DNA of 61,515 bases. It comes from a virus. The stretch's first letter is position 1; the number at the start of each line of letters is the position of its first letter. Under the pieces are notes generated by a model. The model saw nothing but the letters and a program-made list of their open reading frames with translations. It was not told where the DNA came from and did not search any database. The stretch covers positions 1 to 61,515 of IMG/VR virus record IMGVR_UViG_3300034073_004042; one strand, 5' to 3'. Of the stretch, positions 7,550 to 61,515 are shown piece by piece. Both the position numbers and the translations under genes were made by a program.

Positions 7550-7557
7550 TATTTATA
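7550..7557 (-). promoter_or_regulatory. T4-type late promoter box
   Basis: A perfect TATAAATA on the minus strand ends four bases before the ATG at 7545. With T4 late spacing the transcript would begin at or next to the start codon. Confidence 0.7.
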
Positions 7558-22611: not shown

Positions 22612-22640
22612 AGTATAACATAAATGTATACAACTGTCAA
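22612..22640 (-). promoter_or_regulatory. Sigma-70-type promoter of the exonuclease gene
   Basis: Minus-strand TTGACA (22635-22640) and TATACT (22612-22617) are separated by 17 bases. The -35 overlaps the last bases of the upstream gene. Confidence 0.7.
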
Positions 22641-27550: not shown

Positions 27551-27578
27551 AATCCCCGAATTTTCGGGGATTTTTTTT
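27551..27578 (+). terminator. Rho-independent terminator
   Basis: A 9-10 base stem AATCCCCGAA/TTCGGGGATT with a small loop is followed by six or more T. It works on the plus strand only and ends at the stop of the convergent gene. Confidence 0.9.
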
Positions 27579-30573: not shown

Positions 30574-30583
30574 GATGTAATCC

Positions 30584-31395: not shown

Positions 31396-31403
31396 TATTT
31401 ATA
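31396..31403 (-). promoter_or_regulatory. T4-type late promoter box
   Basis: A perfect TATAAATA on the minus strand ends five bases before the ATG at 31390. Confidence 0.7.
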
Positions 31404-34512: not shown

Positions 34513-34833
34513 TTACTCCGGTCTATGTTGATAATTTGGATATAACGAAATAGAATTTCCCTTTAAATCACTGGGGTTTTTTGGACCATTCCATCCACCA
34601 CCTGCATCATTTGTTACTGCACTTATATCTGCTATTACTACGGATGGACTATTATCATATATTCCGGAGTTACTTCTTTCAGCATCAAGCATTGCAAAAA
34701 TATGCTTAAATCTATTTGTATCTACACCTGTTTGGATAGTATCAACTCTTTCTGCTTGATCAGTATCATCTGATTCAACATCAATATCATCAATAAGATC
34801 CAAAATGTTTCTAATTATTTCTGTTGCTTTCAT
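34513..34833 (-). CDS. Conserved hypothetical phage protein (106 aa)
   Basis: The product starts MKATEIIRNILDLIDDIDVE, a helical opening that I recognise from hypothetical proteins of T4-like aquatic phages. It is acidic at first and then has a variable region ending SLYPNYQHRPE. The ATEII start resembles the leader family but lacks a close [ILV]-x-E. A GATAAATA box lies nine bases before the ATG. The function is unknown. Confidence 0.6.
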   Translation of the reverse strand: MKATEIIRNILDLIDDIDVESDDTDQAERVDTIQTGVDTNRFKHIFAMLDAERSNSGIYDNSPSVVIADISAVTNDAGGGWNGPKNPSDLKGNSISLYPNYQHRPE

Positions 34834-40558: not shown

Positions 40559-40828
40559 TTATTTGCGTCTTTTTTTGCCACCACGGGTTGGACCGGAATA
40601 ATCTTTTACTGGACCACCATGACGCTCACTGCGCATTTTCTTGCCCATTAATTTTACTCCAGTACCTTTTTTACCTTGTGTACCAGTTCCAGCAGTGTGC
40701 TTTGAATCATGAGCTTTATAACCCAAACTTACACATTGGCTATATCTGACATTGCTAAGACCGGGTTTAGAACACTGACTCTTAGAAGGCTTTGGTATTT
40801 TCTTTTCAATGATATCACGTAGACGCAT
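40559..40828 (-). CDS. Small basic capsid-leader protein with Cys motif
   Basis: The 89-residue product starts MRLRDIIEKKIPKPSKS with leader and I-I-E site. The rest is very Lys/Arg/Gly-rich, with CSKPGLSNVRYSQC, a pattern also present in 58122-59042 (CSKPRGFSQRAHC). It is probably a packaged DNA-binding protein. An AATAAATA box lies five bases before the ATG. Confidence 0.7.
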   Translation of the reverse strand: MRLRDIIEKKIPKPSKSQCSKPGLSNVRYSQCVSLGYKAHDSKHTAGTGTQGKKGTGVKLMGKKMRSERHGGPVKDYSGPTRGGKKRRK

Positions 40829-40833: not shown

Positions 40834-40841
40834 TATTTATT
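40834..40841 (-). promoter_or_regulatory. Late-type promoter box (AATAAATA)
   Basis: A 7-of-8 match to TATAAATA on the minus strand, with five bases to the ATG at 40828, the same distance as at 31396 and 60375. Confidence 0.55.
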
Positions 40842-45812: not shown

Positions 45813-46620
45813 AAAAGATGACATCGGTATAATACAAAGCCGAGGATTAGGTGATTTAGTAATTGCATTACCAATAGCATATCATTATCATAGTATGGGC
45901 CATAAAGTACACTGGCCTATCTGTGATACTTTCTATAATAGTATGAATTCTGTAGCCCCATGGGTCAATTGGATTCCAATTCCAGTTGATTCACGGGGTT
46001 ATTTTTTTGCAGTAGAACCATTCAAGCGCTTAAGAAACTTAAAGGTTGATGAAGATAATATACTGTATCTGTATCAATACTTAAATTCAAATCCAGAAAA
46101 AACCAACCCAGATTGGTTTTATATGATGAAGTTTGATCAATATAAGTATGCAGCAGCAGGATTACCATTTTCACTCAAATGGGCACTGGAAAAATGTATA
46201 ACTAGAAATAAAGAAAGAGAGCAAAAGCTATACGATCAACTTGTTAGCAATGAAAAGTTCTGGGTTATTCAACAACATAGCAGTGATGTAAGTTATGAAA
46301 TTGATACCAGTGCGATAGATCCATCTAGACAAATCATAGAAATAAAAGAATTAACTGATAACATATGGGATTGGTTATTAATTCTAGAAAAGTGTGAAGG
46401 CATGATTTTAATAGATAGCGTCTTTGCTAACATAGTTGATCAACTAAATTTAAATCCAGACGCAGATAGATACTATATGCGAAAATGGAATAGGAACGTT
46501 GATGGTAATCCAGTATTCTTGAATGAATGGACTTATCTAAGTGTAGATGTACCAGAGAATTTTGAATTTAGAAGTGTGAATCCAGTAGTAGAAGCAAAGA
46601 AAAAACTTTCAAGAAGTTAA
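45802..46620 (+). CDS. GT9-like glycosyltransferase
   Basis: The 272-residue product starts IIQSRGLGDLVIALPIAYHY, a GLGDLV-x-x-x-P start like heptosyltransferases, with a C-terminal block EKCEGMILIDSVFANIVDQL in the position of the donor-site serine loop. It is related in fold to 44829-45602, with low sequence similarity by eye. A role in LPS or virion glycan modification is likely, but the substrate is unknown. It is read from the promoter at 45603. Confidence 0.75.
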   Translation: MKIKKDDIGIIQSRGLGDLVIALPIAYHYHSMGHKVHWPICDTFYNSMNSVAPWVNWIPIPVDSRGYFFAVEPFKRLRNLKVDEDNILYLYQYLNSNPEKTNPDWFYMMKFDQYKYAAAGLPFSLKWALEKCITRNKEREQKLYDQLVSNEKFWVIQQHSSDVSYEIDTSAIDPSRQIIEIKELTDNIWDWLLILEKCEGMILIDSVFANIVDQLNLNPDADRYYMRKWNRNVDGNPVFLNEWTYLSVDVPENFEFRSVNPVVEAKKKLSRS

Positions 46621-46853
46621 CCAAGATATCTGCTTACCTGATATTTGCCTTTAATAAATTGATGCCAGAATTTACCTTTGCTTGGTCTGGTCACAAATTG
46701 TTGATATATTCCTGGCTCCACATTGGCTATTTTATATTTTTTGTTGTTTTTTAAAGTAATGATTAATGATTTTTCTGGAAATGGGATATAACGTATATCC
46801 GTAATCCAACTTGACTTTACTTTAACCTCAGTAATAAATTCCTGTGCTCTCAC
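46617..46853 (-). CDS. KTSC-domain protein with capsid leader
   Basis: The start is GTG at 46853, preceded by an SD (GGA). The 78-residue product begins MRAQEFITEVKVKSS, close to T4 MKTYQEFIAE, and then has a KTSC domain (SSWITDIRYIPFPEKSLIIT, YKIANVEPGIYQQFV). KTSC is a small domain of unknown role often found next to nucleic-acid enzymes. If packaged, cleavage after I-T-E would leave a 69-residue protein. Confidence 0.75.
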   Translation of the reverse strand: MRAQEFITEVKVKSSWITDIRYIPFPEKSLIITLKNNKKYKIANVEPGIYQQFVTRPSKGKFWHQFIKGKYQVSRYLG

Positions 46854-46921
46854 ATTAACATTCCTATATTATAACTATTTAATACTTTTTCATCTAAATA
46901 CAATTTTGAAAGACTCTACCA

Positions 46922-47230
46922 ATGAATAATTATTTAACAAAAATCGGTATATCATTTATACTTGCTGCGGCTTCCATTTCAGTTAATAGTAAACCCGTTG
47001 AAATTAATAAAAAAATAGTTTGCGATGATGCACAGAATGTTTTCAAATATATTGTCAAAGAATATGGTGAAGGTCCAATATGGAAAGGTAACATGAGTGA
47101 AGATATGATTGCTGTAATTACTGCTAATGAAAAAACAACTTCATGGACATTTATAATTATGGACGAGAAAAAAGCCTGTATTGTAGACGCTGGCGAAGGT
47201 TATGAATTCAAAGTACCTAAAAATATTTAA
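46922..47230 (+). CDS. Small exported hypothetical protein
   Basis: The 102-residue product has a signal peptide (YLTKIGISFILAAASISVNS), two Cys (one in VCDDAQ, one in KACIVDAG) that may form a disulfide, and a beta-rich body. Similar periplasmic small proteins occur in aquatic phages. The function is unknown. It converges on the metalloprotease gene with a 4-base overlap of the stops. Confidence 0.65.
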   Translation: MNNYLTKIGISFILAAASISVNSKPVEINKKIVCDDAQNVFKYIVKEYGEGPIWKGNMSEDMIAVITANEKTTSWTFIIMDEKKACIVDAGEGYEFKVPKNI

Positions 47231-47958
47231 TTAGCAGTTTGTAACTCTTCTATTTTATGTGTTATATAATCTATACCACGGTTATATAACCTACGCAAAT
47301 CAGTTGATTCAGTACCTTCTGGAAATAAATCTAGTATTTCTTTTTTCTTTAAGTAATATTTTAATTTATCAAAACTATAATTAAAAGCATCTGACTTTTT
47401 AGTTTTTACTGCATGTTCAATTACAGGTGTAAGAAGATGCAGTACTTCTAAAAATCTAGCATTAATTTCAGAAGGTCTTGCTAGATAGTCTGTTCTAGCT
47501 CTTTTGGGATCTTTTAAAGGATCTCCAATATAACGATATTCTTTTTTTCTAGGAATATCGTAGCCTGTACCAGCGTCAAAATCACTTAGATAAGCATCAA
47601 GTGCATGTCTAAGTTCATGTGCTATTAGTCTAGCCATTCTAGGATCACCAATGTAGTCGGTGTTCAAATATACAGTTTTTATATTTGGGTCCCACAGTGC
47701 CCTTGCTCCTGTTTTTCCAGGAGCAATCTTATTCATATACGAATCACTGACTAATTCTATATGAACTGGATTCAGTATTGCTATATCAGAATCATTATCT
47801 ATTTTTGAAATCTTTTCAATTTTTCCTAGATATAAACCCTGTTTTATTACTTTTTCATTATATTCATACTTGTTTATAAGAGAATTGATTTCATTAGCCA
47901 ACTTGACTATAAGTTTATCTTGACTTGTAGTTTCAGTAATGAAATCAATATATCTCAT
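47227..47958 (-). CDS. HExxH metalloprotease-like protein with capsid leader
   Basis: The 243-residue product starts MRYIDFITETTSQD with the leader and an I-T-E cut site. The zinc-binding motif is ARLIAHELRHALD near residue 115, with a downstream Glu in RPSEINAR as third ligand. It probably cleaves a host protein or helps wall degradation on entry; both are inferred. It is one of three leader-bearing HExxH proteins in the window. Confidence 0.75.
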   Translation of the reverse strand: MRYIDFITETTSQDKLIVKLANEINSLINKYEYNEKVIKQGLYLGKIEKISKIDNDSDIAILNPVHIELVSDSYMNKIAPGKTGARALWDPNIKTVYLNTDYIGDPRMARLIAHELRHALDAYLSDFDAGTGYDIPRKKEYRYIGDPLKDPKRARTDYLARPSEINARFLEVLHLLTPVIEHAVKTKKSDAFNYSFDKLKYYLKKKEILDLFPEGTESTDLRRLYNRGIDYITHKIEELQTAN

Positions 47959-47963
47959 AATTT

Positions 47964-48326
47964 TTAAAATCTATCGGGTTCATTAAAATATGTCGGCTGA
48001 CTGTCAATATGCTTCATTATCTCATTTTCTATATAATCAGATAATATCTCGGGCATATCTTGTATTGGTTCACCAGTTTCTATATTGAAAACTTCATAAT
48101 CTAGTTCCGGTTCTTCAGGAGGCTCACCGCCCCTAGGTCCCCATGATGCAGGACTACTAGCACCGTCATAATTATAGTTTATACCTACTGTAATAAATTC
48201 AGGCGCATCTTCATTTTCTGGCTCTAAAAGATTTTCAATTTCCAATTCCATATCATATTTACGATCGGTCATTTCATCCATCATATCAATATATTCTCTA
48301 ATAAATTCGGCAACACTTTTAGTCAT
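47964..48326 (-). CDS. Acidic hypothetical protein (120 aa)
   Basis: The product starts MTKSVAEFIREYIDMMDEMT and is rich in Asp/Glu/Pro with a middle GASSPASWGPRGGEPPEEP. The AEFIRE at the N-terminus contains I-R-E and could be a variant leader. The function is unknown. An AATAAATA box lies about 22 bases upstream. Confidence 0.6.
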   Translation of the reverse strand: MTKSVAEFIREYIDMMDEMTDRKYDMELEIENLLEPENEDAPEFITVGINYNYDGASSPASWGPRGGEPPEEPELDYEVFNIETGEPIQDMPEILSDYIENEIMKHIDSQPTYFNEPDRF

Positions 48327-48348
48327 GTGATTATCCCTCTGTTAGTAT

Positions 48349-48391
48349 TATTTATTCTAAACTACTATTATAGAAAAATTCTTAATAAATA
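48349..48391. promoter_or_regulatory. Back-to-back late-type boxes
   Basis: On the minus strand AATAAATA (48349-48356) serves the acidic protein gene, and on the plus strand AATAAATA (48384-48391) ends five bases before the ATG at 48397. Between them lies AT-rich sequence with no gene. Confidence 0.5.
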
Positions 48392-48396
48392 ACATC

Positions 48397-49134
48397 ATGA
48401 AAATATTTGAAATAATTGAACCAGAAGATAAAATTACCCCAGTCAATACTAAATGGGATATAGATCGACTAGAACGGAACAGGGATAAATTAATTATATC
48501 TAAACCAGAAGCAGGGGCAGATAGTTTAGGTTATAAAACTAAAGATCCTTTTTTATATGGTAAAAAATCACATGTTCCAGTTAATCTAGAAGCTGATGGA
48601 TTTTATCAATATGTTCAATCAATAAAACCCATAATTAAAGAAAATCCGTATGCTCCTAGAATTTATGTAACCAATATATTGGTAGATAAAAATGGCATGG
48701 GTAGACCAAAATATACTATGGAAAAATTAACTAGTGGGCAATCACTCAGTAAAGAAATAATACATGCTATGGGAACACGGACATTTCAAAGTGAAGATTG
48801 GTATAAAGCAACTGGTGAGTCAATTAGTATAGAACAATTAACAAGTGAAGATTTGTGGAAAATTTTATGTAAAACAATAGAAATTTATTTAAATTCCTAT
48901 CCAGCTAAACCCAGCACTCTATCTACCTTATACCCAATAGCTATAGACGATAAACTAAAAGAACTATTACATATAATTAAAATGGTAGTTATAAAAAATG
49001 AGTATATTATAATAGACTACATACATGCAAATAATGTTATGGCAAGGGGTTATGGGTCGGGGTTTCAGGTTGTTTTAACTGATCCACTAATTTCAAAATA
49101 CGACGTACCTGCCAAACCAATTGATCGTTCTTAA
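48397..49134 (+). CDS. Kinase-like protein with capsid leader (catalytic Asp missing)
   Basis: The 245-residue product starts MKIFEIIEPEDKIT with a leader and I-I-E site. The kinase-like pattern shared with 55571-56311 and 59054-60310 is NPYAPRIYVTNI, YTMEKLTSG (hinge-like) and IHANNVMAR followed by VVLTDPLI (metal-binding DP). Where the paralogs have D-x-H-x-x-N, this one has Y-I-H-A-N-N, so the likely catalytic Asp is absent and it may be a pseudokinase. It is on the plus strand, opposite to its relatives. Confidence 0.65.
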   Translation: MKIFEIIEPEDKITPVNTKWDIDRLERNRDKLIISKPEAGADSLGYKTKDPFLYGKKSHVPVNLEADGFYQYVQSIKPIIKENPYAPRIYVTNILVDKNGMGRPKYTMEKLTSGQSLSKEIIHAMGTRTFQSEDWYKATGESISIEQLTSEDLWKILCKTIEIYLNSYPAKPSTLSTLYPIAIDDKLKELLHIIKMVVIKNEYIIIDYIHANNVMARGYGSGFQVVLTDPLISKYDVPAKPIDRS

Positions 49135-49135
49135 T

Positions 49136-50203
49136 TTATCCACCTATTTCCTCTGGTTGTTGTTTTTTCTTTATCAAATAATCAATATAGTTGTTTACTA
49201 TAAGTGATACCATCTTATAATATCTTTGATAGATTCTCTTTTCTGTTTTTGTATTTGGTAAAACATTTCTACTTCTTAAATGATTGTTAACTGCTTCTAC
49301 TATAAGTTTAGATAAATCGCTTATATCTTTTGAACTTTGTTTATAATATTGTATCAATTGCTCTTTAGAATAAGATTCTAAAAATAACAAATTAATAACA
49401 TCAATGGCAATGTTATTTACATATGCTCCTATTTCCTGCGGTGACGATGCATGTAATCTATTCATCATTTCTATATCAACATATTCATTTGCAGCGTTTT
49501 TAGAGAAAGATTTTAAAAATTTTTCACGATTTGCTAGATATGAACGATACTCAGTATTTTGTCTATAACCTCCCCCCGGCATTTGCTTTAATTGTTGATT
49601 ATAATGCTGCTTTACATGAACTAGCTCATGTAAATATGTTGATACCATATCGGTTATAAGTTTAGCAAAATCAATCATAAATTGTTTTAACAAATATTGA
49701 TCTTTTACCAACGAAGACAATATTCTTTTTAAGTTTTCAAAAAATGTATTACCTTCCCATGAATCTGCTGCATATAAAATTAAATCATGCGCTAATTTAT
49801 CAACCAAAGGAAAATAAAATACCTTTTCATTTAAAAATACTTTACTATTGGCAGGATTAGCTTGTCCCCAATCTGGTCCTATATCGCGCAATTCAACTTT
49901 TAATAATTTAGCAGCAGAATTTTTTGGTGGCATTTTTGTCAAGCCCAGTATATCTCTACCTAAAGCTGTTAAATGAGCTTCTATATTATATTTTAAAGAT
50001 ATAGAAATATAGTTTTTTAGAATTTCTTTAATTTTCTTACTATCACTTCCCATACCTAAATCAATATTTTTAAAGTCTGGTTCATTCAAATCTTTATTTA
50101 ATGATGATATTTCTTCAACTATCCCATTATAGATAGCCTGAAATGCATCTTCTTTATGACTGGTATAGTCAATTATTTCTGTTACTATTTCACGTGCTCT
50201 CAT
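49136..50203 (-). CDS. HExxH metalloprotease-like protein with capsid leader
   Basis: I choose ATG 50203 (MRAREIVTEIIDYTS), which overlaps the upstream gene by four bases. The 355-residue product has the zinc motif TYLHELVHVKQHYNQ near residue 195, with Glu in SPQEIGAYV as a possible third ligand. The rest is helical. Cleavage after V-T-E would mature it. The substrate is unknown. Confidence 0.75.
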   Translation of the reverse strand: MRAREIVTEIIDYTSHKEDAFQAIYNGIVEEISSLNKDLNEPDFKNIDLGMGSDSKKIKEILKNYISISLKYNIEAHLTALGRDILGLTKMPPKNSAAKLLKVELRDIGPDWGQANPANSKVFLNEKVFYFPLVDKLAHDLILYAADSWEGNTFFENLKRILSSLVKDQYLLKQFMIDFAKLITDMVSTYLHELVHVKQHYNQQLKQMPGGGYRQNTEYRSYLANREKFLKSFSKNAANEYVDIEMMNRLHASSPQEIGAYVNNIAIDVINLLFLESYSKEQLIQYYKQSSKDISDLSKLIVEAVNNHLRSRNVLPNTKTEKRIYQRYYKMVSLIVNNYIDYLIKKKQQPEEIGG

Positions 50204-51771
50204 GACATTTCTCTCCAACCGTAACCTGCTGGATTAGTTATACTATGGCGATTTAAAAAATTACGAAATTGTTCTCTAGCACCTTCTCTATCACCAGATC
50301 TATATAAGAATGTTCCTAAAACTTGATTCCCATCTATCTTATAAACTTCATACCTTGAATTACCATCAGGAAAATTTCTAGAAGTGGGAGTATTAGTTGG
50401 CTCTCCAGTATTTTTAGGCACGGATGTAGATTTATCAAAATTTTTAACCCCATAGTAATCAGATATAAATTCATCCTTTGTTATTTGTCCAGCAATATAT
50501 TTTGCAAGCAATTGCCCCAATGAACTTGTATTTTTATCTTGAATAATAGGGGATAATACTTTGTAAAGTTTTTTGAGATATTCTTCTCTGTATTTTTCTG
50601 GATCTACAGCAGCATCTAATACTACAATAAATCTTAACATTGTTTCTTCAACCTTACTCCAATAGGTATAATCTAACCAGTTACCACCCGGGCTACGGAA
50701 TTCAACATAATTCTCTCTTGGATTAACACTAAAGTATCTAGTTGGAGGTACTGCTCCCTGAAGCATATTTGCACCTAACTGTGATAATTTACTCTTCATT
50801 TTATCTAATAAATTTAAAACAATGCCTGGATTAGACTGTGCTTTATCTTTAATTAATCGCAAAGAACTTGCTGTATATTCTGTATTACCTAATCTTCCAA
50901 AATCATTAAGAACCTTTTCATCTCCAAGCAATAACACTAGCTTTATATAGTCAACGGTTGATATATGATAATTGGGGACACTTACATTTATATGTAACCC
51001 AGTAGATTCATTTGTATAGTGATCATTTTTCAATGCCCAATCTCTAACTTTCTCCATTTTAGTAATCATCACATCAACCGGCAATCCACCATCTGGAGTT
51101 ATAAACTCTAACCCTTTTGGTTTTATACTAGAATCATTCTCGATTCTCCAATAACCAAATTTATTTCCCCCTGATATGTCCCAGCTAACGTTATCATAAA
51201 ATACACTAACCCCAACATCTCTACTAAAAGAATCTGCAATATTATCACTACTACTTGGATCGTATTCTGTCATATATGGCCAAGATAAATCCCCACCATA
51301 CGCCTCATATACATCCTTGGCGTAAGAATAATTTTCATTAAAAAATTGCCTTTCATAATATGATTGATTTTCATCAAGTTCATTTTCTGCCCATTCACCA
51401 TATGTATCAAACATACCTTTTACTGGAAGCATTTCCCATTCTCTTTCCAGTTCATTTTCTACCCAATCTTCAAACTCACTAGTTAACCAGTTTTCCAATT
51501 TATTAATAGCATATGTTGAATTACTTGAATTAAAAAAATCTTTAACATCCTCAATAGATTTTACTCTAATATCTTCATCAAAATCTGGTTCTGGTACAAA
51601 ATCTTCTTCGTCATCTCCCATATCAGGAACTACCATTTCAAATTCCATACCAACCCTAGCACCCTCTATACTAGAAGCCAATTTTGATAGATTGTTAGGT
51701 TTCATATTAATTTCAAATAATGATAAATCATTTTCATTAATATTGGTTTTAGTAAATTCACGTGCTCTCAT
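50200..51771 (-). CDS. Amidoligase-like enzyme with capsid leader
   Basis: The 523-residue product starts MRAREFTKTNINENDLS. The amidoligase (COOH-NH2 ligase) pattern is ARVGMEFEMVVPD with two acidic residues, then ENDSSIKPKGLEFITPDGG, ESTGLHINVSVPN and ENYVEFRSPGGNW, all typical of the Amidoligase_2 group. These enzymes join amines to carboxylates, often in peptide tagging. A packaged amidoligase might modify host proteins. It overlaps both neighbours by four bases. Confidence 0.75.
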   Translation of the reverse strand: MRAREFTKTNINENDLSLFEINMKPNNLSKLASSIEGARVGMEFEMVVPDMGDDEEDFVPEPDFDEDIRVKSIEDVKDFFNSSNSTYAINKLENWLTSEFEDWVENELEREWEMLPVKGMFDTYGEWAENELDENQSYYERQFFNENYSYAKDVYEAYGGDLSWPYMTEYDPSSSDNIADSFSRDVGVSVFYDNVSWDISGGNKFGYWRIENDSSIKPKGLEFITPDGGLPVDVMITKMEKVRDWALKNDHYTNESTGLHINVSVPNYHISTVDYIKLVLLLGDEKVLNDFGRLGNTEYTASSLRLIKDKAQSNPGIVLNLLDKMKSKLSQLGANMLQGAVPPTRYFSVNPRENYVEFRSPGGNWLDYTYWSKVEETMLRFIVVLDAAVDPEKYREEYLKKLYKVLSPIIQDKNTSSLGQLLAKYIAGQITKDEFISDYYGVKNFDKSTSVPKNTGEPTNTPTSRNFPDGNSRYEVYKIDGNQVLGTFLYRSGDREGAREQFRNFLNRHSITNPAGYGWREMS

Positions 51772-54700
51772 GATTGTCTACTTTTTTTCTCTTTATAAAC
51801 TTCATTATAATAATTTTCTAAATCACCATCACCTTTATCATAGTAGCTATCTAAAGATCTTCTAACTTTCCAAAATAAAGTATATAATTTTCCAATTAAT
51901 TTAATAGGTTTATCTATTCCTTCAATATCAGGATTTTCCATCATTAATTCACGATTTACCATAAATGTAGCTAATTGTGGAATCATTTCTTTTAATTGTT
52001 TATACATTGTTGCATCATGTCTAGTATCTTGTAAACTAGCACCACCAAACTTAATATCTGATCCTCGTTCTGTCTTAATTTGTTCTATTATATTATTTAA
52101 GTTAGATACCATTTCTTTATAATTATCATTTAATTGCCAGTTGAAAAATACAGCTGATTTAATAGAATTGAAATAATGATAATCTTCACTGTGTTTTAAA
52201 AGATTTCTAAGTTTCCAGAAAAACCTTATATCTTCACTGGTAGAGTCATCAGAATTCAATGCATTTATATACTTTTGTACTTTTTCTATAGAATCTTTAG
52301 AAAATTTTAATTGGTTAATTATTTTATCAGCCACTAACCCAGCTAATCTATTGTATTCATTATTTTCTGTTTTATCAGACCTAAATGTATTTTTAGTATT
52401 ATATATTGGTTTTGATCCCCAATAATTGTAATATGCATCTAATGGTATCGGTGATTCTAATACCTCCTTTAAAGTTAATTCATACAAATAGTCTTCAATC
52501 CTTAAATATGTAGAATTGTTTATATAATTTAATAAATTTTGTTCTATAATACCAAGTAAATTTTTAACATATTCAATTTTTTTATCATTATCTAACCCAG
52601 ATATTATTACTCCTAATAAAAATTTGGTATTAGAGAAATTATTCAAAGGTGAAACTAAATCAGAAGCAGATTTGTCATTTAACTCAAGAAAATATTTGTT
52701 ATTTGTACTGACCAAATGTCCAACAAATCTTTCGTCTAAGTCCCCCACTTTAATAAATGCGTATAAGTCATTAAACGATATGATTTTTCTTTTGATAGCA
52801 TCATTGAAAATATTAAACAATTCTTTAAAATTTTCTTCGGTTATTGAAATACCTCCTAAATTTTGAATTATAGCCTGAAAAATTTTTGGATTATCAGGAA
52901 ATTTTTTAATCAGTGTTATTAGTAAATCATTTATTGATGATTCTGTGTAACTGACGGTGGTGCTTAGTAACAGATCGCTTACTTTATCTCTAGATGTATT
53001 AGGAAATTTTTTCAATACAGCAACTATTAAATTAATTAAATTTTCTTCATCTAAATACCGTATATCATAATTATTATTAAGCGGATTTATACCATTATCT
53101 ATAAAATAATACATAGTTTTCAAAAATTTTTCTTTATCTAAATCAAATAAAATGCTATAAAAATTTAGTAAACGATAGTTGTCTTCAGAAGAAGATATTT
53201 CATCTTTTAATTTTACTATATTTTTTATGACTTTATCAAAAATCAAATATTTGTCATCAATATCGTCATAAAAAATGGAGAAACTTAAGGGATCTTTGTC
53301 TATTAGTTGTTCTATATATTTTTCTTGTTCACTCGGTGGTAATGTATTAAAAAAATTAACCATAAAACCCGGTTCAGTAATTAGATCTTTTAAGCTACTT
53401 ATATTATTTTTAAGTAATAACTTCATAAGATATTGAACTTTTTCTAATTCAAACATGTAATTTAAATTACTGCGGTTTATATTTTGGAGGAAGTTTTCAG
53501 AATCATTCAAAATAGCCACTTCTAATAATTTAGAAAATTCATCATCATTAAATTGATGATGTCGTATATTTTTTAATAATCGTGGGTTTATTTTTATATT
53601 TTTTAAAACTGTTTGATAATCTAATTTTGATACATGAAGAAGATATTCGGGATTTAATCTTAAAAAAGCATCTTGAACATCAATATCATCCATTATTAAA
53701 AAAGCGTTTGTGTCTCTTTTTAAATTACTTAATATATCCCAAGGATCTTCAATAACTTTTTTCTCCAAATCACTTAGATTTACTGTTAACCGCCCACTGC
53801 CTCTATCAGGATATGAACGATCATGTCTATTATATATTCCCTTCTTATTTGTTAAAGTATTTGCATTATCAATCCACTTTTGTACTTCCGCTTTGAATAG
53901 TTTTATTACTTCTGTATCTTCTGGATATGCGGCAGAGGAATACACACGACCTTCTATACCAAGTGCCACATCATCTGGATTGTTTTGATTAACATATGGT
54001 TTTATTAATATTCTTGCTTCTGGATCTTTATCTTTAAAATTCTCATAACCACGATGTGTTAGATATGATATGATAGATCCTATAGTGATTTCAATTGGAA
54101 CATAAAAACAGTTAATTCCCCCTCTTTCAATCCATTCAGTACCATTCCATTCCCAAGTCTCATTACCAGCGTAATGTATGGTTCCTATGGTTGGATTTGA
54201 TGGCCAAAATGCATTTATCTTTGGTTTATCTGCATTAGGTAATCTCATACAACTTGACCATTTTTGATTGGTACTCATTGCTCCTATATCAACGGGATGT
54301 CTACTTATAACAACTGAGAATTCAATTTTTTTAGATGGTTCTACTATTTTTCTAGCAGGATCATTTACAAATAACTTAAGAATTTCTTTATTATTTTCAC
54401 CTTGGAGAAGTGATCCAATTTTTTTTGGTCTAGTATCTATGGGGATACTAGCTTTAAATTTAGCAAGATCATCTGCGACTTTAGTATCAAACGTATTAAT
54501 CAATGCTGATGGTTTACCTTTAGTAAACAATCTTTCTGCTCTTATATTACGCCCCCGTTCATTCTCAACAGCCAACCCATTTATATAACTTGCTATATCA
54601 TATCCAATGTTGGCTAAAGTATCCTGAACAGATCTTATATTATTACTTTTACGCCTAACATGAGCTTCTTGTTCTTCTGGTGACATACTTTTAAATCTAT

Positions 54701-54869
54701 CGTAGTCACTCTTATCTGGATAATGATCAAATGGAAAAGATACCCGCCACTTACCATCAAATATCTCATTATATCTATCTTTGATAAATTTAAAATCACT
54801 CTTATTTCTCAATACTCTGTATTGAGATCTAGTCATTGCTTCGGGTATTATAAATTCACGTGCTCTCAT
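51768..54869 (-). CDS. Large internal protein with capsid leader (1033 aa)
   Basis: The product starts MRAREFIIPEAMTRSQYRV. Residues about 155-365 have a domain known from phage proteins: VVISRHPVDIGAMSTNQKWSS then CMRLP, YVPIEITIGSIISYL and ARILIKPYVNQ. A tail-fibre-like insert (FWPSNPTIGTIHYAGNETW) interrupts it. The C-terminal two thirds are a long helical repeat-like region (NPEYLLHVSK, NPRLLKNIRHHQ) resembling ankyrin-free alpha solenoids. The function is unknown; the solenoid could mediate binding to host partners. Confidence 0.65.
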   Translation of the reverse strand: MRAREFIIPEAMTRSQYRVLRNKSDFKFIKDRYNEIFDGKWRVSFPFDHYPDKSDYDRFKSMSPEEQEAHVRRKSNNIRSVQDTLANIGYDIASYINGLAVENERGRNIRAERLFTKGKPSALINTFDTKVADDLAKFKASIPIDTRPKKIGSLLQGENNKEILKLFVNDPARKIVEPSKKIEFSVVISRHPVDIGAMSTNQKWSSCMRLPNADKPKINAFWPSNPTIGTIHYAGNETWEWNGTEWIERGGINCFYVPIEITIGSIISYLTHRGYENFKDKDPEARILIKPYVNQNNPDDVALGIEGRVYSSAAYPEDTEVIKLFKAEVQKWIDNANTLTNKKGIYNRHDRSYPDRGSGRLTVNLSDLEKKVIEDPWDILSNLKRDTNAFLIMDDIDVQDAFLRLNPEYLLHVSKLDYQTVLKNIKINPRLLKNIRHHQFNDDEFSKLLEVAILNDSENFLQNINRSNLNYMFELEKVQYLMKLLLKNNISSLKDLITEPGFMVNFFNTLPPSEQEKYIEQLIDKDPLSFSIFYDDIDDKYLIFDKVIKNIVKLKDEISSSEDNYRLLNFYSILFDLDKEKFLKTMYYFIDNGINPLNNNYDIRYLDEENLINLIVAVLKKFPNTSRDKVSDLLLSTTVSYTESSINDLLITLIKKFPDNPKIFQAIIQNLGGISITEENFKELFNIFNDAIKRKIISFNDLYAFIKVGDLDERFVGHLVSTNNKYFLELNDKSASDLVSPLNNFSNTKFLLGVIISGLDNDKKIEYVKNLLGIIEQNLLNYINNSTYLRIEDYLYELTLKEVLESPIPLDAYYNYWGSKPIYNTKNTFRSDKTENNEYNRLAGLVADKIINQLKFSKDSIEKVQKYINALNSDDSTSEDIRFFWKLRNLLKHSEDYHYFNSIKSAVFFNWQLNDNYKEMVSNLNNIIEQIKTERGSDIKFGGASLQDTRHDATMYKQLKEMIPQLATFMVNRELMMENPDIEGIDKPIKLIGKLYTLFWKVRRSLDSYYDKGDGDLENYYNEVYKEKKSRQS

Positions 54870-55561
54870 AAGTATAACTCCGATACTATACTGTTACTAT
54901 TACGATTATATTTTCCATTATTACCAACAGCACTTTTTAATTGATTCTTCTGCCAAGCAACAAAAAATTTTACATTACTAGGTAATTTAACTATTACACC
55001 ATCATACTTGGTTAACTTGGTTATCAATGCCAAAAATACACTAGGAGATACTCCACTCCAAAAATCACCCATGATAGTCATGATTTGCTGTATAAAATTG
55101 TCATATACAGTATAAGCATTTACAGCACGATTCAACACCTTGTACACACCTTCACTACTAGTATCACCAAAGTTCAATATACTATCTTCAAAGTTTGGAG
55201 ATTTGGTAATCAACTCTCGTATAATTCTTGTCGATACTGGTTTTGTAATACCATGAATAACAGGTTTTTGAATCGATACATACAATGGGATTACATTTGG
55301 TGATTCACCATATGCATATTGACTTGCACCACTAGGATCAGTGGTAACATAAAAACCAGGACCATATAGATCATTACCCTTATCTTCACCTCTATAATCT
55401 AAACTAAATTCGTCAAAAGACGCACCAGTACCATGATATACTACCAATGGTCTATTTTTACTGTCTACTGCTACACTGTTACCAAACCATGAAATAAAGT
55501 TTTCATAATTCCGTATAGGTTTGTCTAAGCTGTTTGTGTGTAAAAATTCAGATGCTCTCAT
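54866..55561 (-). CDS. ART-PolyVal-like ADP-ribosyltransferase with leader
   Basis: The 231-residue product begins MRASEFLHTNSLDK and then has the phage polyvalent-protein ADP-ribosyltransferase layout: FISWFGNSVAVDSKN, RPLVVYHGTG, LYGPGFYVTTDPSGASQYA, and YDGVIVKLP followed by WQKNQLKSAVGNNGKY. His and Tyr of the active site are visible. The domain is like the one fused in 59054-60310. It probably modifies a host protein or RNA with ADP-ribose. The leader's cut site is not obvious here. Confidence 0.75.
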   Translation of the reverse strand: MRASEFLHTNSLDKPIRNYENFISWFGNSVAVDSKNRPLVVYHGTGASFDEFSLDYRGEDKGNDLYGPGFYVTTDPSGASQYAYGESPNVIPLYVSIQKPVIHGITKPVSTRIIRELITKSPNFEDSILNFGDTSSEGVYKVLNRAVNAYTVYDNFIQQIMTIMGDFWSGVSPSVFLALITKLTKYDGVIVKLPSNVKFFVAWQKNQLKSAVGNNGKYNRNSNSIVSELYL

Positions 55562-55570
55562 AATATTTCT

Positions 55571-56311
55571 CTATACGATTGGATCATATACAACTAGTCT
55601 AGGACCACCCACCCCCAAACGTATTAAACAATTACCAGGGTGAAAATCTAAATTCCATTGTCGGGTATTGGTTAAACTTTTTATTAAATCAATAACTTTC
55701 ATAAACTGGGGGTCAACATCGTTGAACATATTTTCAATTATCATATAATCTCGAATCATATATACTAACATATTCCAATTTTGTATTTTTGTAGCCCTAT
55801 ATCCAGTATCTCTTATATTTACTTTATCATACTGCAACATTTTCTTTTCTAGACTGGGAGATATTATTTTAGCCATTGAAAGAATACTATCATAATCTAA
55901 ACTTCTACGACCACCACTACCGGCAGATATTGAGAATATATCCATTGAATTTACTAGACGTTCTACTTTATAAGTGGGTGAAAAATATTCTTGCTTTGAA
56001 CCTGGTTTTTCATATGCTGTTATATCAACATCATACACTCTAGGTACATATGGATTACCATCCTTTAATAATGGTTGTATGGCTTTGAACCATGTATATT
56101 TGGCATCTCGTTCCAATTGTTTCTTTGTAAGAGGAGATAAAATTCTCTTGACCTTTACTTCACCCTGACTTTGCTCATCTCCGCCATCCACGGCAAATGA
56201 AGTTACACCTGCACCAACCCTATTTCTTGCATCAGGAACCTCATTGCCATCAGTCCATTTTTCAGGACCGGACGTTTTGAATTTTGTATCAATTATTTCT
56301 GTGATGAGCAT
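55571..56311 (-). CDS. Kinase-like protein with leader-type start
   Basis: The 246-residue product starts MLITEIIDTKFKTSG. Kinase-like elements are GNPYVPRVYDVDI, YKVERLVNSMD, LDFHPGNCLI (D-x-H-x-x-N catalytic loop) and LVVYDPIV (metal-binding Asp). The small N-lobe suggests an aminoglycoside- or fructosamine-kinase-like phosphotransferase. It lies next to the ART gene, a pairing that recurs as a fusion in 59054-60310. Confidence 0.65.
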   Translation of the reverse strand: MLITEIIDTKFKTSGPEKWTDGNEVPDARNRVGAGVTSFAVDGGDEQSQGEVKVKRILSPLTKKQLERDAKYTWFKAIQPLLKDGNPYVPRVYDVDITAYEKPGSKQEYFSPTYKVERLVNSMDIFSISAGSGGRRSLDYDSILSMAKIISPSLEKKMLQYDKVNIRDTGYRATKIQNWNMLVYMIRDYMIIENMFNDVDPQFMKVIDLIKSLTNTRQWNLDFHPGNCLIRLGVGGPRLVVYDPIV

Positions 56312-56313
56312 TA

Positions 56314-58125
56314 TTACTTGTTTCCAAATACTATATTTTTAACATCCTCAATACGTATATTTACCAATCTAGTGGTACCAACAGCTCTTTCCCTCCAATA
56401 ACCAGCCTGCCACAAATATTGCATCAAATAATAAAAAAACTTCGGCAGAACTAAATCAGTTCTAACTATTTTTATACCTATATCCTCTGGATTCCAATCA
56501 CGAGAAGGTTGTCCTACATCACCGATAGACCCTCTACGAACTAACCAAAAATCAGCATCCTCCATATTAATACTTACTTTAGCCAGTTGACTTAATTTAT
56601 ATCCCTCGTTTTCGGATATAATTTTATTCTTGTTAATAGATTGTCTATTACCATAATACCAACGTTGTTCGCTCTCTGATAAATTATTCTTTTTCATACG
56701 CTTTACATACTCCACTGCCGTAGCATAATCATCCCGCAAATCGTCAAAGTCACCACTCAATGCTTTCTCCAACGTATCGGGATTATCTAAAATATACCTA
56801 GCCTTACTATGCCACGGTAAATGTATGGCTATCATTTGTTCGGGTGGTACATCCTCTAAAACAAAAGGATCATCCCATTTATCCCGATCAACATAAAATT
56901 CTAAGGTTGGAACTCTACCAGGTTCTCCATAAAATCCACGTTCACTTGCATATATAGCACGTGGACCCTCTATCCCCCTAGCATGTGCAATACTCAACCC
57001 TGTTTTAGCAATCTTTTCTAAATTATCCGGTTTACTCTGATGATACAATCTAACAGTACCCACTGGTATATCTACAGTTCCCGGCTTCGGTGGTAATGTT
57101 CCACTAGCACCAGAAACCTCCGTTGATTCTAGTACAGATTCTTTTGCCATTTTATCTCCAGTACTATACTGTTTCATTAATTGCATACTTGCATTATCGG
57201 CCAACAATAAACGTAAACCAGGATGCAACCGTCTTGGCCAATTACCAAAATCAACCCATTTATAACCCTGTGTTTCCCAATTTAATTTTGGATCAAATTC
57301 AGTTTCTACCAAAGCTAAAAAATTGTAATAGGTAAATCCACTGGTATGTTTAAACACATACAGGGGCACTAACTCAATCGTACCATAATAACCAGCCTCT
57401 TCTTGCACCTCCCTTCGAACAGCTGCTTCAGGACTTTCACCCTGATCTATAGCACCACCCCATGTTCCCCATGTATTTGGCTTTTCTACCTCATCACTTC
57501 TATGGGCTATACATATTCTCCCAGTATCCCGTGCCTGAAATAAACACCCGGCAGCACTACGACCCCAGAATCCAGTTTTCTTTAATGCTACAGCATGATC
57601 CATTTCATTCTCTAACACCCGGGGATCTCGATCCCCTATAATATACCAAGTATCAACCTTCTCCCCACCCTCCTGCTCAAAATATACAGCACTGTATCCT
57701 TTACTGCGTAAGTAATCATTATCTTGCACCGTAGGATATGGAAAGTCAGATTCATTGTTTACCAATACCTCATATAGATAAGTATCCTCCACAGGAAGAT
57801 TTGGATACTTATTATTCATCCACCTGCTAAAATCCTGCATCATACTTTGCTTAGCTTCTGCCGATACCTTACTTAATGTAGTAATATTAAGTGTACGTTC
57901 AGGTAAGTCAGTAAGTTTTCTAATAACACGATTGCCCTTATTGGCATATTGTCGGGTTACATAATCTTTAATTGATGACCAAAATGTACCTGGATATCTT
58001 TGTATAGGTCCGGCTGCACGATACAGAACCGCTGGTCTGGGAACTACAGATAGGGAAGGATCATCAATAGAACTTATATTTTTAATAGAACTGTCACTCT
58101 CTATAATAATTTCATATAACCTCAT
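56314..58125 (-). CDS. ART-like / Nudix / ART-like fusion with capsid leader
   Basis: I choose ATG 58125 (MRLYEIIIESDSS), giving 603 residues. The N-terminal domain (about 30-180: RPAVLYRAAG, YSAVYFEQEGG) looks like an ADP-ribosyltransferase fold. Next comes a Nudix hydrolase with a perfect box, GGAIDQGESPEAAVRREVQE then EAGY. Then an ART-like C-terminal part (VRLYHQSKPDNLEKIAKTGL, AIYASERGF). An L-E-S/V-S-E-rich linker (SVLESTEVSG) may be cut. Nudix enzymes act on ADP-ribose or capped RNA. ART calls are moderate, the Nudix call is strong. Confidence 0.75.
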   Translation of the reverse strand: MRLYEIIIESDSSIKNISSIDDPSLSVVPRPAVLYRAAGPIQRYPGTFWSSIKDYVTRQYANKGNRVIRKLTDLPERTLNITTLSKVSAEAKQSMMQDFSRWMNNKYPNLPVEDTYLYEVLVNNESDFPYPTVQDNDYLRSKGYSAVYFEQEGGEKVDTWYIIGDRDPRVLENEMDHAVALKKTGFWGRSAAGCLFQARDTGRICIAHRSDEVEKPNTWGTWGGAIDQGESPEAAVRREVQEEAGYYGTIELVPLYVFKHTSGFTYYNFLALVETEFDPKLNWETQGYKWVDFGNWPRRLHPGLRLLLADNASMQLMKQYSTGDKMAKESVLESTEVSGASGTLPPKPGTVDIPVGTVRLYHQSKPDNLEKIAKTGLSIAHARGIEGPRAIYASERGFYGEPGRVPTLEFYVDRDKWDDPFVLEDVPPEQMIAIHLPWHSKARYILDNPDTLEKALSGDFDDLRDDYATAVEYVKRMKKNNLSESEQRWYYGNRQSINKNKIISENEGYKLSQLAKVSINMEDADFWLVRRGSIGDVGQPSRDWNPEDIGIKIVRTDLVLPKFFYYLMQYLWQAGYWRERAVGTTRLVNIRIEDVKNIVFGNK

Positions 58126-59042
58126 ACCAACTCCCAATAAACACTGGCATTCATGGTAGGATCATCCTGTGGATAACGATTCATCAGATAAGAATATGCC
58201 CCCTGTATATATGAGTGAGTTAAAAATTTCTTTGGAATAACAATACTGCAATATCCAGGCTCACCACCTCTGCTAGTTTTTGCAACAATATAATCAATTA
58301 CCTGTTGAAATTCTCTTGCATTAAAATTTCTACCCATATGCTTAAACTGTTTGTACACTTCGGCCTGCTCAAAATTCTCTACATTACGACCCCAATACAG
58401 ATATATCCCATCAAGAGTTACATGGAAATACAAATAATAACCACCCTCAAAAGAAGTATCTATACTGGTGTCCACTTTATATTTGTCAAACATGGGATCA
58501 GAAAATATACCACCAACCTCATCCGATTTACTCACTGCTTTTTTAGGTTTTACTTTACGTATTAATTTATCATTCGACTTAGATGCTAATTTGTTAGTCT
58601 CACGATCTAACTCATCCTGTCGTTTCATAGAACTACTGGCTTTCCGTTGACGACGACGTTGAGCCACACTTATCTCACTTAACCTGTCCCTGTTCTTAAA
58701 CAATCTACCCTCTATATACCAATAGACTTCCCGATTGTATCGTTTGACATCTATAACTCTAACATCATAGCCCATCTTGTCAAGCCAATCCTGCGCATCC
58801 ATTATTAATTGTTCAGCGAATAGATTGGAGTCCGTGCTAGTGTCCCAACCTTTGCCCACTATATCCATCATCTCACTATCACTATACCAACGACCACCCC
58901 CAGAATCCGGGGCAAATTCTTTTATGCCCCGCTTTTTTCTACCTGCACAATGAGCACGTTGACTAAACCCCCGGGGTTTGGAACAATCAATGCTTCGTTT
59001 ATACTTCTCACTCCATGCTTCAACAATTTCATTGAATCTCAT
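58122..59042 (-). CDS. Capsid-leader protein with Cys-rich basic N-terminus
   Basis: ATG 59042 is preceded by an SD AAAGGA and gives a 306-residue product starting MRFNEIVEAWSEKYKRS. It then has DCSKPRGFSQRAHCAGRKK, matching the Cys motif of 40559-40828, and a conserved beta-domain with YYLYFHVTLDGIYLYWG. It is basic and may bind DNA. The function is unknown. It overlaps the next gene by four bases. Confidence 0.7.
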   Translation of the reverse strand: MRFNEIVEAWSEKYKRSIDCSKPRGFSQRAHCAGRKKRGIKEFAPDSGGGRWYSDSEMMDIVGKGWDTSTDSNLFAEQLIMDAQDWLDKMGYDVRVIDVKRYNREVYWYIEGRLFKNRDRLSEISVAQRRRQRKASSSMKRQDELDRETNKLASKSNDKLIRKVKPKKAVSKSDEVGGIFSDPMFDKYKVDTSIDTSFEGGYYLYFHVTLDGIYLYWGRNVENFEQAEVYKQFKHMGRNFNAREFQQVIDYIVAKTSRGGEPGYCSIVIPKKFLTHSYIQGAYSYLMNRYPQDDPTMNASVYWELV

Positions 59043-59053
59043 ATATAATTCCT

Positions 59054-60310
59054 TTAAACGAATGGATCTGTAACGACAACATTCCAACCATACTGACTGG
59101 CTCTGACCATAAAATTACCGGTGTGAAGATCAAAACCTCTATACAAACCAGCTTTTTCCTTCACCCGTCTAAGAACTTTAACAACATCCATAAACTTAGG
59201 ATCTAGATCATAATATGTTGATTCATCCCCACCTTTTATTATTATAGCTAAATGTTCAACAAAAGCTTGCCATAAATTATAAGGATTATAATCACTTTGT
59301 CTAAAACTATCCTCAAATGAAATTCGCAAAGCATTAGAAACCTGACCTACCATACCCATGAAATTCTTGTAAAAAACTTCATCATCAGTTCTGCTAGTAT
59401 AACTTGTTTTATTTAAATCCGAAATTTTAAACAAACGTTCCATACTAAACTTAGGCACTACCTTTAATTTACCATCTGCGTCACGATACCTATCAGTACT
59501 CATTTCATATACCCGAGGCACATATGGATTACCCTGCTTCATCAACCGCTCCATAGCACGTATCCATACAACTTTTGCATCGTCCTTATATCTATCAGAT
59601 GCTACTGGCGAATATTTTCCTAATTCAATATCACCCTCTGGTTTTTCCTTGGCAGTATAAAATAACCCACTACCTACTCTATCAGGCGAACTATCAGAAT
59701 AATCGGGTTCAGGAGGTGGACCATCAACATCGACCCTAGTTCTACGTATACCACCCTCACCTACCATACTGCGATCACCGGGACTATACCGACCACTATT
59801 ACCCACAGCACTCTTTACCTGTGAGGGATTGTAGGCAACTATCTCAGCAACCCTGCCATCCCTGTATTGAATCAACCCATCATGTCCAGCAGCCAATGCC
59901 CGACTCATTACCTGCCGACGTATATACCCATGTTCATCATACGCACGTTCAACCATACGTACAGCCCGGTCACGATCAACACCTAACTTGACCAAAGCAT
60001 ATATCATAGGATCATCACGACCACCGTCTATAATCAACGGATTCTGCATGGATACATATACAGGTATTATATTGGCACCACTACCACTGGCATAATTACC
60101 GGCAAACTCAGCATTGGGTGTCAAATATATACCAGCACCTAAAGCACCCTCACTAGATAACTTTAAACTAGTATAATCACCAGTCGTACCATGATACACC
60201 ACCAACGGTTTACCACTACTATCAACAACCTGTGAATCACCAAACCAACTTCTAAATGCAGGATTGTCCAAAGGATCACTACGCCCCTCTACTATCTCCC
60301 TAAACCGCAT
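59054..60310 (-). CDS. ART-PolyVal plus kinase-like fusion with capsid leader
   Basis: ATG 60310 (MRFREIVEGRSDP) gives 418 residues. The N-terminal half is ART-PolyVal-like (NPAFRSWFGDSQVVD, PLVVYHGTTGDY, GAGIYLTPNAEFAGNYA, NPSQVKSAVGNSGRY). The C-terminal half is kinase-like (GNPYVPRVYEMST, FSMERLFKI, GFDLHTGNFMVR, VVTDPFV). The two domains occur as neighbouring separate genes at 54866-56311, so this looks like a fusion or the ancestor of them. A GGAG SD precedes the start. Confidence 0.78.
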   Translation of the reverse strand: MRFREIVEGRSDPLDNPAFRSWFGDSQVVDSSGKPLVVYHGTTGDYTSLKLSSEGALGAGIYLTPNAEFAGNYASGSGANIIPVYVSMQNPLIIDGGRDDPMIYALVKLGVDRDRAVRMVERAYDEHGYIRRQVMSRALAAGHDGLIQYRDGRVAEIVAYNPSQVKSAVGNSGRYSPGDRSMVGEGGIRRTRVDVDGPPPEPDYSDSSPDRVGSGLFYTAKEKPEGDIELGKYSPVASDRYKDDAKVVWIRAMERLMKQGNPYVPRVYEMSTDRYRDADGKLKVVPKFSMERLFKISDLNKTSYTSRTDDEVFYKNFMGMVGQVSNALRISFEDSFRQSDYNPYNLWQAFVEHLAIIIKGGDESTYYDLDPKFMDVVKVLRRVKEKAGLYRGFDLHTGNFMVRASQYGWNVVVTDPFV

Positions 60311-60374
60311 GCCCAAATCTCCAAAGTTAACAATATTTATCCACCATACCAATTATTATTAATCATTATTTCAA

Positions 60375-60382
60375 GATAAATA
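60375..60382 (+). promoter_or_regulatory. Late-type promoter box (GATAAATA)
   Basis: A 7-of-8 match to TATAAATA ends five bases before the ATG at 60388. Confidence 0.55.
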
Positions 60383-60387
60383 TCCCC

Positions 60388-61515
60388 ATGAGAATTATAG
60401 ATATAATCACCGAAAGTAAAGATAATATTATCAACCTAGGCTATCCACCCATCATAGCAAAACTATTCTTTAAACAATGGGGCAAACTAGCATACCAAAT
60501 AGCCAGTTGGTATAAAGATTATAAAAATACCCGTGCCGATAATAAAGATTGGTTTAAACTCGCCCACTCATCATTCACCGATAGAACAAATTTAAGAAAC
60601 ATAATAGATCTATACGACGCTACCGATAACATAGAACAATACAACAAACTTAGACAAGATATCGGACTGCCTATACATGTAATAGACAAAATACCCGTTA
60701 ATCAATACCTACAAGATGAAAAAATAAACCTAATCAAAATCATAGAAGATAAATTCTTCGACGAAACATTCTTTACCTACTACCCATTTATACAAAATAT
60801 AAAAGCAAAAAAGATCACAGACCTTAACCCATATAAAAACTTAACATTCGACCAAGCCAATAAAAAATACGAAGAATACCAGGTATTCCAAAATACTAAA
60901 CCCCTAAAAATATATAAGAACGGATTCAAATGGATCAACGTAGGACCCAAATGCTTCTTCCTAGGTAACCTAATGCGTAACTGCGGATCAGCCGGTGTCA
61001 TGAGCTATGACCCCGATCGAACAATCATCGCACTATTTGACTCAAACAATAAACCACACGCCATGGTAACATACTCCCCCAACGAAAATAGAATCAGCGG
61101 AGATGAAGGTGGAGCAAGCACCCCAGTAAAATCAAAATACCACCGATACGTTCTAGACCTAGCCAAAACCCTTAACGCATCATTCGATTGGAATAGATCT
61201 AAATCAAAACTACTACAACTAAAATATAGACTGAAACCAGTTAACGCAACAAATATAAAACAACTATTCACCAAAGATGATTCAACATTCGATGAATACT
61301 ATACCTTTACCATAGATAACGATACCTACTACTCAAACGGATATACAGCTATCTCTAAACCCGATACCAAACTACTAGCACAAAAACTTCTAAACAAAGA
61401 AATAACAAATACCTACCCAAAACTAAATCCCAATACTAAAACCCTAACCCTAAAACAAGTACTAAAAACATTCTTCAATAGCAATAACCCAGATTATATT
61501 TTTAAACAAGCTAAT
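60388..61515 (+). CDS. Partial capsid-leader protein (C-terminus off the right edge)
   Basis: ATG 60388 opens a frame with no stop through 61515 (376 codons). The product starts MRIIDIITESKDNI with the leader and I-T-E site. A middle block FKWINVGPKCFFLGNLMRNC then GSAG, and PHAMVTYSPNENRISGDEGG, resembles PcfJ-like domains of phage and plasmid polyvalent proteins, with the RNCGSAG in the place of an HCV/HC motif. Codons end in C unusually often (ACC, AAC, GAC, CCC), unlike earlier genes. The function is unknown. Confidence 0.7.
   Translation, partial: MRIIDIITESKDNIINLGYPPIIAKLFFKQWGKLAYQIASWYKDYKNTRADNKDWFKLAHSSFTDRTNLRNIIDLYDATDNIEQYNKLRQDIGLPIHVIDKIPVNQYLQDEKINLIKIIEDKFFDETFFTYYPFIQNIKAKKITDLNPYKNLTFDQANKKYEEYQVFQNTKPLKIYKNGFKWINVGPKCFFLGNLMRNCGSAGVMSYDPDRTIIALFDSNNKPHAMVTYSPNENRISGDEGGASTPVKSKYHRYVLDLAKTLNASFDWNRSKSKLLQLKYRLKPVNATNIKQLFTKDDSTFDEYYTFTIDNDTYYSNGYTAISKPDTKLLAQKLLNKEITNTYPKLNPNTKTLTLKQVLKTFFNSNNPDYIFKQAN

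Follow-up and report, generated by a model that had tools for sequence, protein, structure and literature searches.

The DNA analysed here (the window) is a 61.5-kb virus fragment, positions 1 to 61,515 of IMG/VR record IMGVR_UViG_3300034073_004042, with 33% GC and 66 genes. About 19 of the 66 genes open with the same short peptide leader, M-[RK]-x-x-[ED]-[FIL]-[ILV]-(x)-E, or a decayed version of it. In an array at 46.6 to 61.5 kb, every gene is tagged in this way except 46922 (plus strand, signal-peptide-like); genes are named here by their first coordinate. The shared N termini quoted by the initial annotation were all present at the genes that it named; 47964–48326 (MTKSVAEFIRE, a T4-like leader) was missing from its list. 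In the lists below, arrows mark the predicted cut position.

Genes and promoters of the array
46617–46853, minus: KTSC-domain protein, leader MRAQEFITE↓V, GTG start (KTSC PF13619, 1.2e-9)
47227–47958, minus: metallopeptidase-like protein (HELRHALD), leader MRYIDFITE↓T (Peptidase_M91 0.014, below cut-off; motif by eye)
47964–48326, minus: acidic 120-amino-acid protein, leader MTKSVAEFIRE↓Y (from translation)
48384–48391, plus: late-promoter-like octamer AATAAATA, at -13 of 48397
48397–49134, plus: protein with leader MKIFEIIE↓P and a domain common to 55571 and 59054 (sequence comparison)
49136–50203, minus: HExxH metallopeptidase-like protein, leader MRAREIVTE↓I (weak PHROG matches; motif by eye)
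50200–51771, minus: 523-amino-acid protein, leader-like MRAREFTKTN without cut site (homologue in Atu_ph07)
51768–54869, minus: 1033-amino-acid protein, leader MRAREFIIPE↓A (body homologues in Atu_ph07, LR756502 and L006)
54866–55561, minus: ART-PolyVal ADP-ribosyltransferase, leader-like MRASEFLHT without Glu (PF18760, 5e-21)
55571–56311, minus: D-x-H-x-x-N...DP domain protein, leader MLITEIID (Asp at the cut position)
56314–58125, minus: NUDIX protein with unassigned flanks, leader MRLYEIIIE↓S (PF00293, 3.5e-15)
58122–59042, minus: 306-amino-acid protein, leader MRFNEIVE↓A
59054–60310, minus: ART-PolyVal fused to a 55571-type domain, leader MRFREIVE↓G (PF18760, 2e-25)
60375–60382, plus: late-promoter-like octamer GATAAATA, at -13 of 60388
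60388–61515, plus: open-ended 376-amino-acid protein, leader MRIIDIITE↓S

Leader genes and promoters outside the array
5056–7545, minus: GH19 chitinase/endolysin and ParB-N protein, leader MRFSEFNITE↓D (PF00182 2.5e-17; PF02195 7.8e-6)
7550–7557, minus: late-promoter octamer TATAAATA, at -12 of the 5056–7545 gene
22637–23011, minus: leader-like MRLFEILD, Asp at the cut position (positional homologue of CBB_299)
24784–24972, minus: leader-like MKLYELISG without cut site (homologue in G019)
24969–25400, minus: leader-like MKIKELVYIRE, with I-R-E slightly later
30584–31390, minus: Zn-peptidase-like protein, leader MRYRELVE↓N (phrog_87 metallo-protease, 2e-5)
31396–31403, minus: late-promoter octamer TATAAATA, at -13 of the 30584–31390 gene
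34513–34833, minus: leader-like MKATEIIRN without cut site (homologues in G019, L194 and L318)
40559–40828, minus: small basic protein, leader MRLRDIIE↓K
40834–40841, minus: late-promoter-like octamer AATAAATA, at -13 of the 40559–40828 gene

In five genes (49136, 56314, 58122, 59054 and 5056) the leader starts at an internal ATG, 4 to 15 codons past the start of the longest open reading frame (ORF). The first 37 amino acids of the 58122 protein, comprising the leader and a KYKKSINCS-type segment, are conserved in other contigs. The cut site was indeed missing from 54866, 55571, 24784 and 22637, as had been annotated, but that list was short, with 50200 (MRAREFTKTN) and 34513 (MKATEIIRNI) lacking it too.

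The leader is overrepresented at gene starts

A strict motif, ^M[RK]..[EDNQ][FILVM][ILVFMTA].?E, was scored over all candidate starts, and expected counts were obtained by permutation of residues 2 to 12. It occurred 10 times in the window against 0.20 expected; counted per gene, it was present at 10/66 gene starts and at 0/282 internal methionines (p=3e-8). A looser core, M[RKL]xx[ED][FILV], was found at 19 of the 66 gene starts and 2 of the 282 internal methionines (p=3e-13). Since the motif was derived from the window itself, independent tests in other genomes weigh more. The search of related genomes for this N-terminal motif, which the initial annotation had proposed, revealed enrichment in Agrobacterium phage Atu_ph07 (16 observed, 1.5 expected), a genome found only via homology to the 51768 body, and in the relatives G014 (13 versus 0.8), G012 (9 versus 0.8) and G019 (7 versus 0.8), which were themselves found through the leader pattern. 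Eight of the 16 leader genes of Atu_ph07 form a nearly unbroken tandem run (MRWEQLTE, MKWHQLTE, MRLFQLLE).

The strict motif was at or little above background in CBB, RaK2, T4, S-RIM12 and XacN1; the T4 leader is one residue longer and is therefore missed by it. A wide T4-style pattern was enriched in T4 (10 versus 3.5 expected) and in the contigs L003 to L007, with no enrichment in CBB or RaK2. These five contigs, found only via the NUDIX body, carry arrays with T4-like leaders (MISFKLFLE, MITFKQFLE, MNFKQWLINE). In L003 to L007 (IMG/VR), as many as a dozen genes with T4-type leaders stand in tandem; a NUDIX protein and one resembling poly(A)-polymerase/CCA-adding enzymes are among their products.

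Operon-first leader genes lie behind predicted late promoters

In all five operon-first leader genes (5056, 30584, 40559, 48397 and 60388), NATAAATA starts 12 to 13 bases ahead of the ATG. In T4 the late promoter, TATAAATA, has its centre close to -10. Transcription of these five genes would begin at or within about a base of the ATG, and by sequence the leader genes are predicted to be expressed late. Most other genes of the array are located inside operons; they lack the promoter but carry the same leader. In a scan of IMG/VR, the late promoter together with the leader was found in 105 stretches for the E8 form and in at least 120 for the E9 form, and a control scan with acidic and hydrophobic codons swapped returned 1 stretch versus 105; there are near-duplicates among the 105, which are stretches and not lineages. 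Many of the stretches returned hold further leader genes (MRAKEFITE, MRASEFLTE, MRITEIITE). In about 16 to 25 genes per relative genome (G012, G014 and G019), the TAAATA of T4-like late promoter octamers was sharply positioned at -11/-10 relative to the ATG; no such positional peak was present in T4, S-RIM12 or Atu_ph07. This spacing, which is also present at many non-leader genes, suggests that many late mRNAs in the lineage of the window may be leaderless.

The leader ends in a predicted protease cut site

In about two thirds of the members the leader ends with [ILV]-x-E, and the amino acid preference in the leaders stops at the Glu. The Glu register was examined in 142 starts, picked only by M[RK]xx[ED][FILM], with promoter-pattern picks excluded, and made non-redundant by body. 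Phe6 paired with Glu9 (25) over Glu8 (1), Leu6 mainly with Glu8 (24, versus 9 for Glu9), and Ile6 with either (Glu8, 5; Glu9, 11). The register thus tracks the aliphatic residue two positions before the Glu (P3; Fisher p=1.1e-6), the pattern expected from selection by a protease that requires Glu at P1 and an aliphatic P3 residue ([ILV]-x-E).

A prohead protease gene, expected by the initial annotation, was found in leader-bearing relatives; none is present in the window, a fragment without head genes. Of 25 large leader-bearing contigs, 16 matched the T4 gp21 profile (PF03420) above cut-off, and among the contigs of >200 kb nearly every one did; Atu_ph07 matched it as well (2.4e-22). The genomes with gp21 thus include G012, G019, G014 and Atu_ph07, besides others. 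Since the late promoter in the query preselects T4-like phages, this result is a co-occurrence and does not extend to a correlation outside that group. Close to gp21 (179 kb) of G014 there are three leader genes in tandem (174 to 176 kb).

The major capsid proteins of the relatives carry similar sites: LLAE↓SSAG in G012, YLSE↓SATAG in G019, MLRE↓SATAG in CBB, and the F-E and M-E variants of L-x-E, ALFE↓SATAG in RaK2 and PLME↓NATAG in Atu_ph07. They lie at the place homologous to the T4 gp23 cleavage site, FLTE↓AEIGG. Scaffold/core proteins beside gp21 open with similar sites, the scaffolds being of the LLE↓S- or LVE↓S- type, and a small protein between portal and gp21 starts with MLLKEFINF, MKLFEMFNP or MLFKDIFES, and in Atu_ph07 with MKLTELFNP.

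Leaders and bodies are separable

The 51768 body occurs in four lineages behind four leaders (MRAREFIIPE↓A, MQYTDLIE↓A, MRITDFKKFE↓A and MNFKMWLE↓G), and in the alignment the Glu and the small residue that follows coincide in all four. Likewise, the NUDIX body was found behind MRLYEIIIE, MRLYDLFE, MISFKLFLE and MTTFKQFLE. Leaders on conserved bodies are lineage specific.

The bodies had been described as unrelated. This was correct for most of them, but not for 54866 and 59054, which have an ADP-ribosyltransferase domain in common, or for 48397, 55571 and 59054, which have another. Cargo domains comprise ART-PolyVal (54866, 76 bits, and 59054, 90 bits, both above the profile cut-off of 31.2), NUDIX (56314), KTSC (46617) and GH19 with ParB-N (5056); peptidase-like motifs are present in 47227, 49136 and 30584. 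The domain common to 48397, 55571 and 59054, in the last fused to the ADP-ribosyltransferase, is marked by D-x-H-x-x-N...DP. It had no Pfam match, a PDB profile search gave no credible match, and the AlphaFold model of the 55571 domain was unusable (pLDDT [predicted local distance difference test] 41). A kinase-like fold for 48397, 55571 and the C-terminal part of 59054 would be only a guess, from the motif alone. The neighbours 54866 and 55571 (ADP-ribosyltransferase and D-x-H-x-x-N domain, 54866–56311) recur fused as 59054–60310, and this separate and fused recurrence suggests that the two domains may act together.

The window belongs to a lineage of large T4-like phages

Window positions 7.6 to 38.9 kb are syntenic with 320 to 289 kb of G019, a 331-kb IMG/VR contig (NrdA 81% and NrdB 75% identical), which carries gp21 and gp23 genes. 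This synteny makes the phage a member of a large T4-like phage lineage, and the window, a fragment, simply does not include the head module. G030 (IMGVR_UViG_3300035670_009931), a contig of another dataset, matches window positions 1 to 43777 with its positions 22492 to 66268 (43.8 kb, 99.998% identity) and runs 22 kb further left. Exact peptide patterns returned no direct relatives of the 51768 and 47227 bodies in IMG/VR, and the freshwater leader families had no match among isolated phages.

A probable capsid-targeting tag for putatively injected proteins

The shared N terminus is very probably a capsid-targeting propeptide of the T4 internal protein type, and the proteins behind it would be packaged, cut by a gp21-type protease and injected. 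This reading was already that of the initial annotation, and every testable prediction at the sequence level came out in its favor: gp21 in relatives, late promoters, the [ILV]-x-E coupling, the cut sites of head proteins, lineage-specific leaders, and one protein of a virion proteome. That protein is CBB_299 of Pectobacterium phage CBB, detected by mass spectrometry among 55 virion proteins, from 2 peptides with 20% coverage (PMC5259590, Table 4). It carries the tag MRFSQITED and is the positional homologue of window 22637, with weak similarity; the match is a single case with a base rate of about 10%.

In T4, a protein is packaged with no more than the first 10 residues of IPIII as its signal. 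Residues 4 and 7 are important in targeting, and residues 8 and 10 in processing; when position 10 is Asp, processing is blocked while targeting is kept (PMC9026906). We infer core binding, packaging, cleavage, injection and effector function of the tagged proteins along the same lines. Made late, they would bind the prohead core through the leader (hydrophobic at 3, acidic at 5, hydrophobic at 6) and be drawn into the assembling head. Leader residues 3, 5 and 6 correspond to Y4, E6 and F7 of IPIII, position 3 often being only Ala. A gp21-type protease would then cut after [ILV]-x-E, the mature proteins would stay with the DNA and be injected with it at infection, and the ADP-ribosyltransferase, NUDIX, Zn-protease-like and other enzyme domains would act on the new host cell. 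Given the IPIII Asp10 result, the Asp-for-Glu members 55571 and 22637 are predicted to be packaged but uncut.

Several observations weigh against this reading. The cut site is missing from about a third of the members, and neither the window nor the overlapping contig G030 has a head gene or protease. Just one tagged protein of the relatives was matched to a virion proteome, by the 2 peptides mentioned above. In Atu_ph07, for which 131 virion proteins were detected (PMC6102473), the tandem leader array (gp85 to gp93, numbered from gp215) lies just outside the main virion protein cluster, CDS (coding sequences) 31 to 76. The virion chitinase of XacN1, ORF272, has no leader.

The leader might instead recruit assembly or core factors to the prohead; once cut, these would mostly stay structural or be lost, rather than be injected as effectors. 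The similar N terminus of the small head-core protein encoded next to gp21, on its portal side, would fit this, as would CBB_299, known just as a virion component. We nevertheless consider it unlikely, since the cargo is enzyme-like (ADP-ribosyltransferase, NUDIX, peptidase-like) and the bodies turn over fast under a constant tag, for which injected effectors (compare T4 Alt and the internal proteins) are the better fit. Still less probable is that the leader targets another place, such as the tail, the host membrane or a phage-nucleus shell, or that it is a relic of one ancestral gene, copies of which became joined to new bodies. The members without a cut site (about a third) and the duplication of some bodies would fit this, but the [ILV]-x-E coupling, the presence of gp21, the matching cut sites of head proteins and the rematching of leaders by lineage on the same body all speak against both versions. 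That the N-terminal likeness is a DNA constraint imposed by the late promoter and a leaderless start, with no protein signal, is largely refuted and deserves hardly any credence. It draws on the position of NATAAATA at -13/-12 of the operon-first leader genes, yet operon-internal genes without a promoter have the same leader, the same promoter spacing occurs at many non-leader genes, and the Glu register tracks the residue two before. Moreover, codons inside the leader vary synonymously, with all six Arg codons and many Ile, Leu and Val codons in use; this free codon use indicates that selection acts on the peptide.

As a capsid-targeting sequence (CTS), the leader resembles that of T4 IPI, IPII and IPIII (MKTYQEFIAE, cut by gp21) in being a short N-terminal tag common to otherwise mostly unrelated proteins, with hydrophobic targeting residues, an acidic residue before the second of these, an [IL]-x-E cut consensus, late expression, and gp21 in relatives. 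Unlike it, the leader of the window is one residue shorter (MRAREFITE, with which MKTYQEFIAE aligns once one residue is removed) and has Arg at position 2, and there are about 15 to 19 tagged proteins in 61 kb, with larger, enzyme-like cargo and near-leaderless late promoters. T4 Alt, a head-packaged ADP-ribosyltransferase, likewise has its domain behind a head-targeting propeptide, whereas the window has the ART-PolyVal family (PF18760) in two copies, one of them fused, with NUDIX and peptidase-like companions. In P1 DarB an N-terminal signal also sends antirestriction cargo to the head, but it differs in sequence and length (the first 30 residues are sufficient) and P1 is of another lineage (PMC9024508). 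The phiKZ/SPN3US ejection proteins include many propeptide head proteins, ejected after processing by a gp21-related protease; their cut motif is S/A-x-E, however, and the accessible parts of these papers describe no short common leader of ~9 residues (PMC9026906, PMC5694885). Atu_ph07 (Rak2-like, 490 kb) also has gp21 and homologues of the 50200 and 51768 bodies, and 16 of its proteins, many of them encoded in tandem, start with MRLIDLLE/MRWEQLTE leaders. It has its own leader consensus, and the available text of PMC6102473 does not mention the leaders.

The CTS has been proposed as a possibly general means for T4-like phages to add head proteins (PMC9026906), and no earlier description of such leader arrays was found in open-licence papers. 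The mechanism would be that of T4; the scale, the lineage, the changed leader and a cargo list readable from sequence appear to be new. The phage probably carries an unusually large enzyme set for delivery into its host. We lean, with some reserve, toward the broader view that in widespread uncultured T4-like jumbo phages one interchangeable head tag loads large, fast-changing sets of injected, host-acting enzymes, a repertoire that could be read from the genome. Injected phage proteins are mostly unknown beyond a few model phages; with the tag and the gp21 cut rule, candidates could be listed from sequence alone in large T4-like phages. Tagged uncharacterised domains would be candidate anti-defence or takeover enzymes, and natural leader-cargo pairs may be usable for protein delivery work.

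Other features of the window

The NrdA gene (15744–19660) seems to be split by an intein-like insertion that contains a separate ORF (16264–17463). Its downstream part opens with an intein-like C terminus (..NGCVSHNS), and the two parts adjoin in relatives. Positions 27577–30705 hold a 1042-amino-acid ORF that matched no family convincingly and whose coding sequence is of low complexity and strongly repetitive; the comparison with G030 showed short repeats as well.

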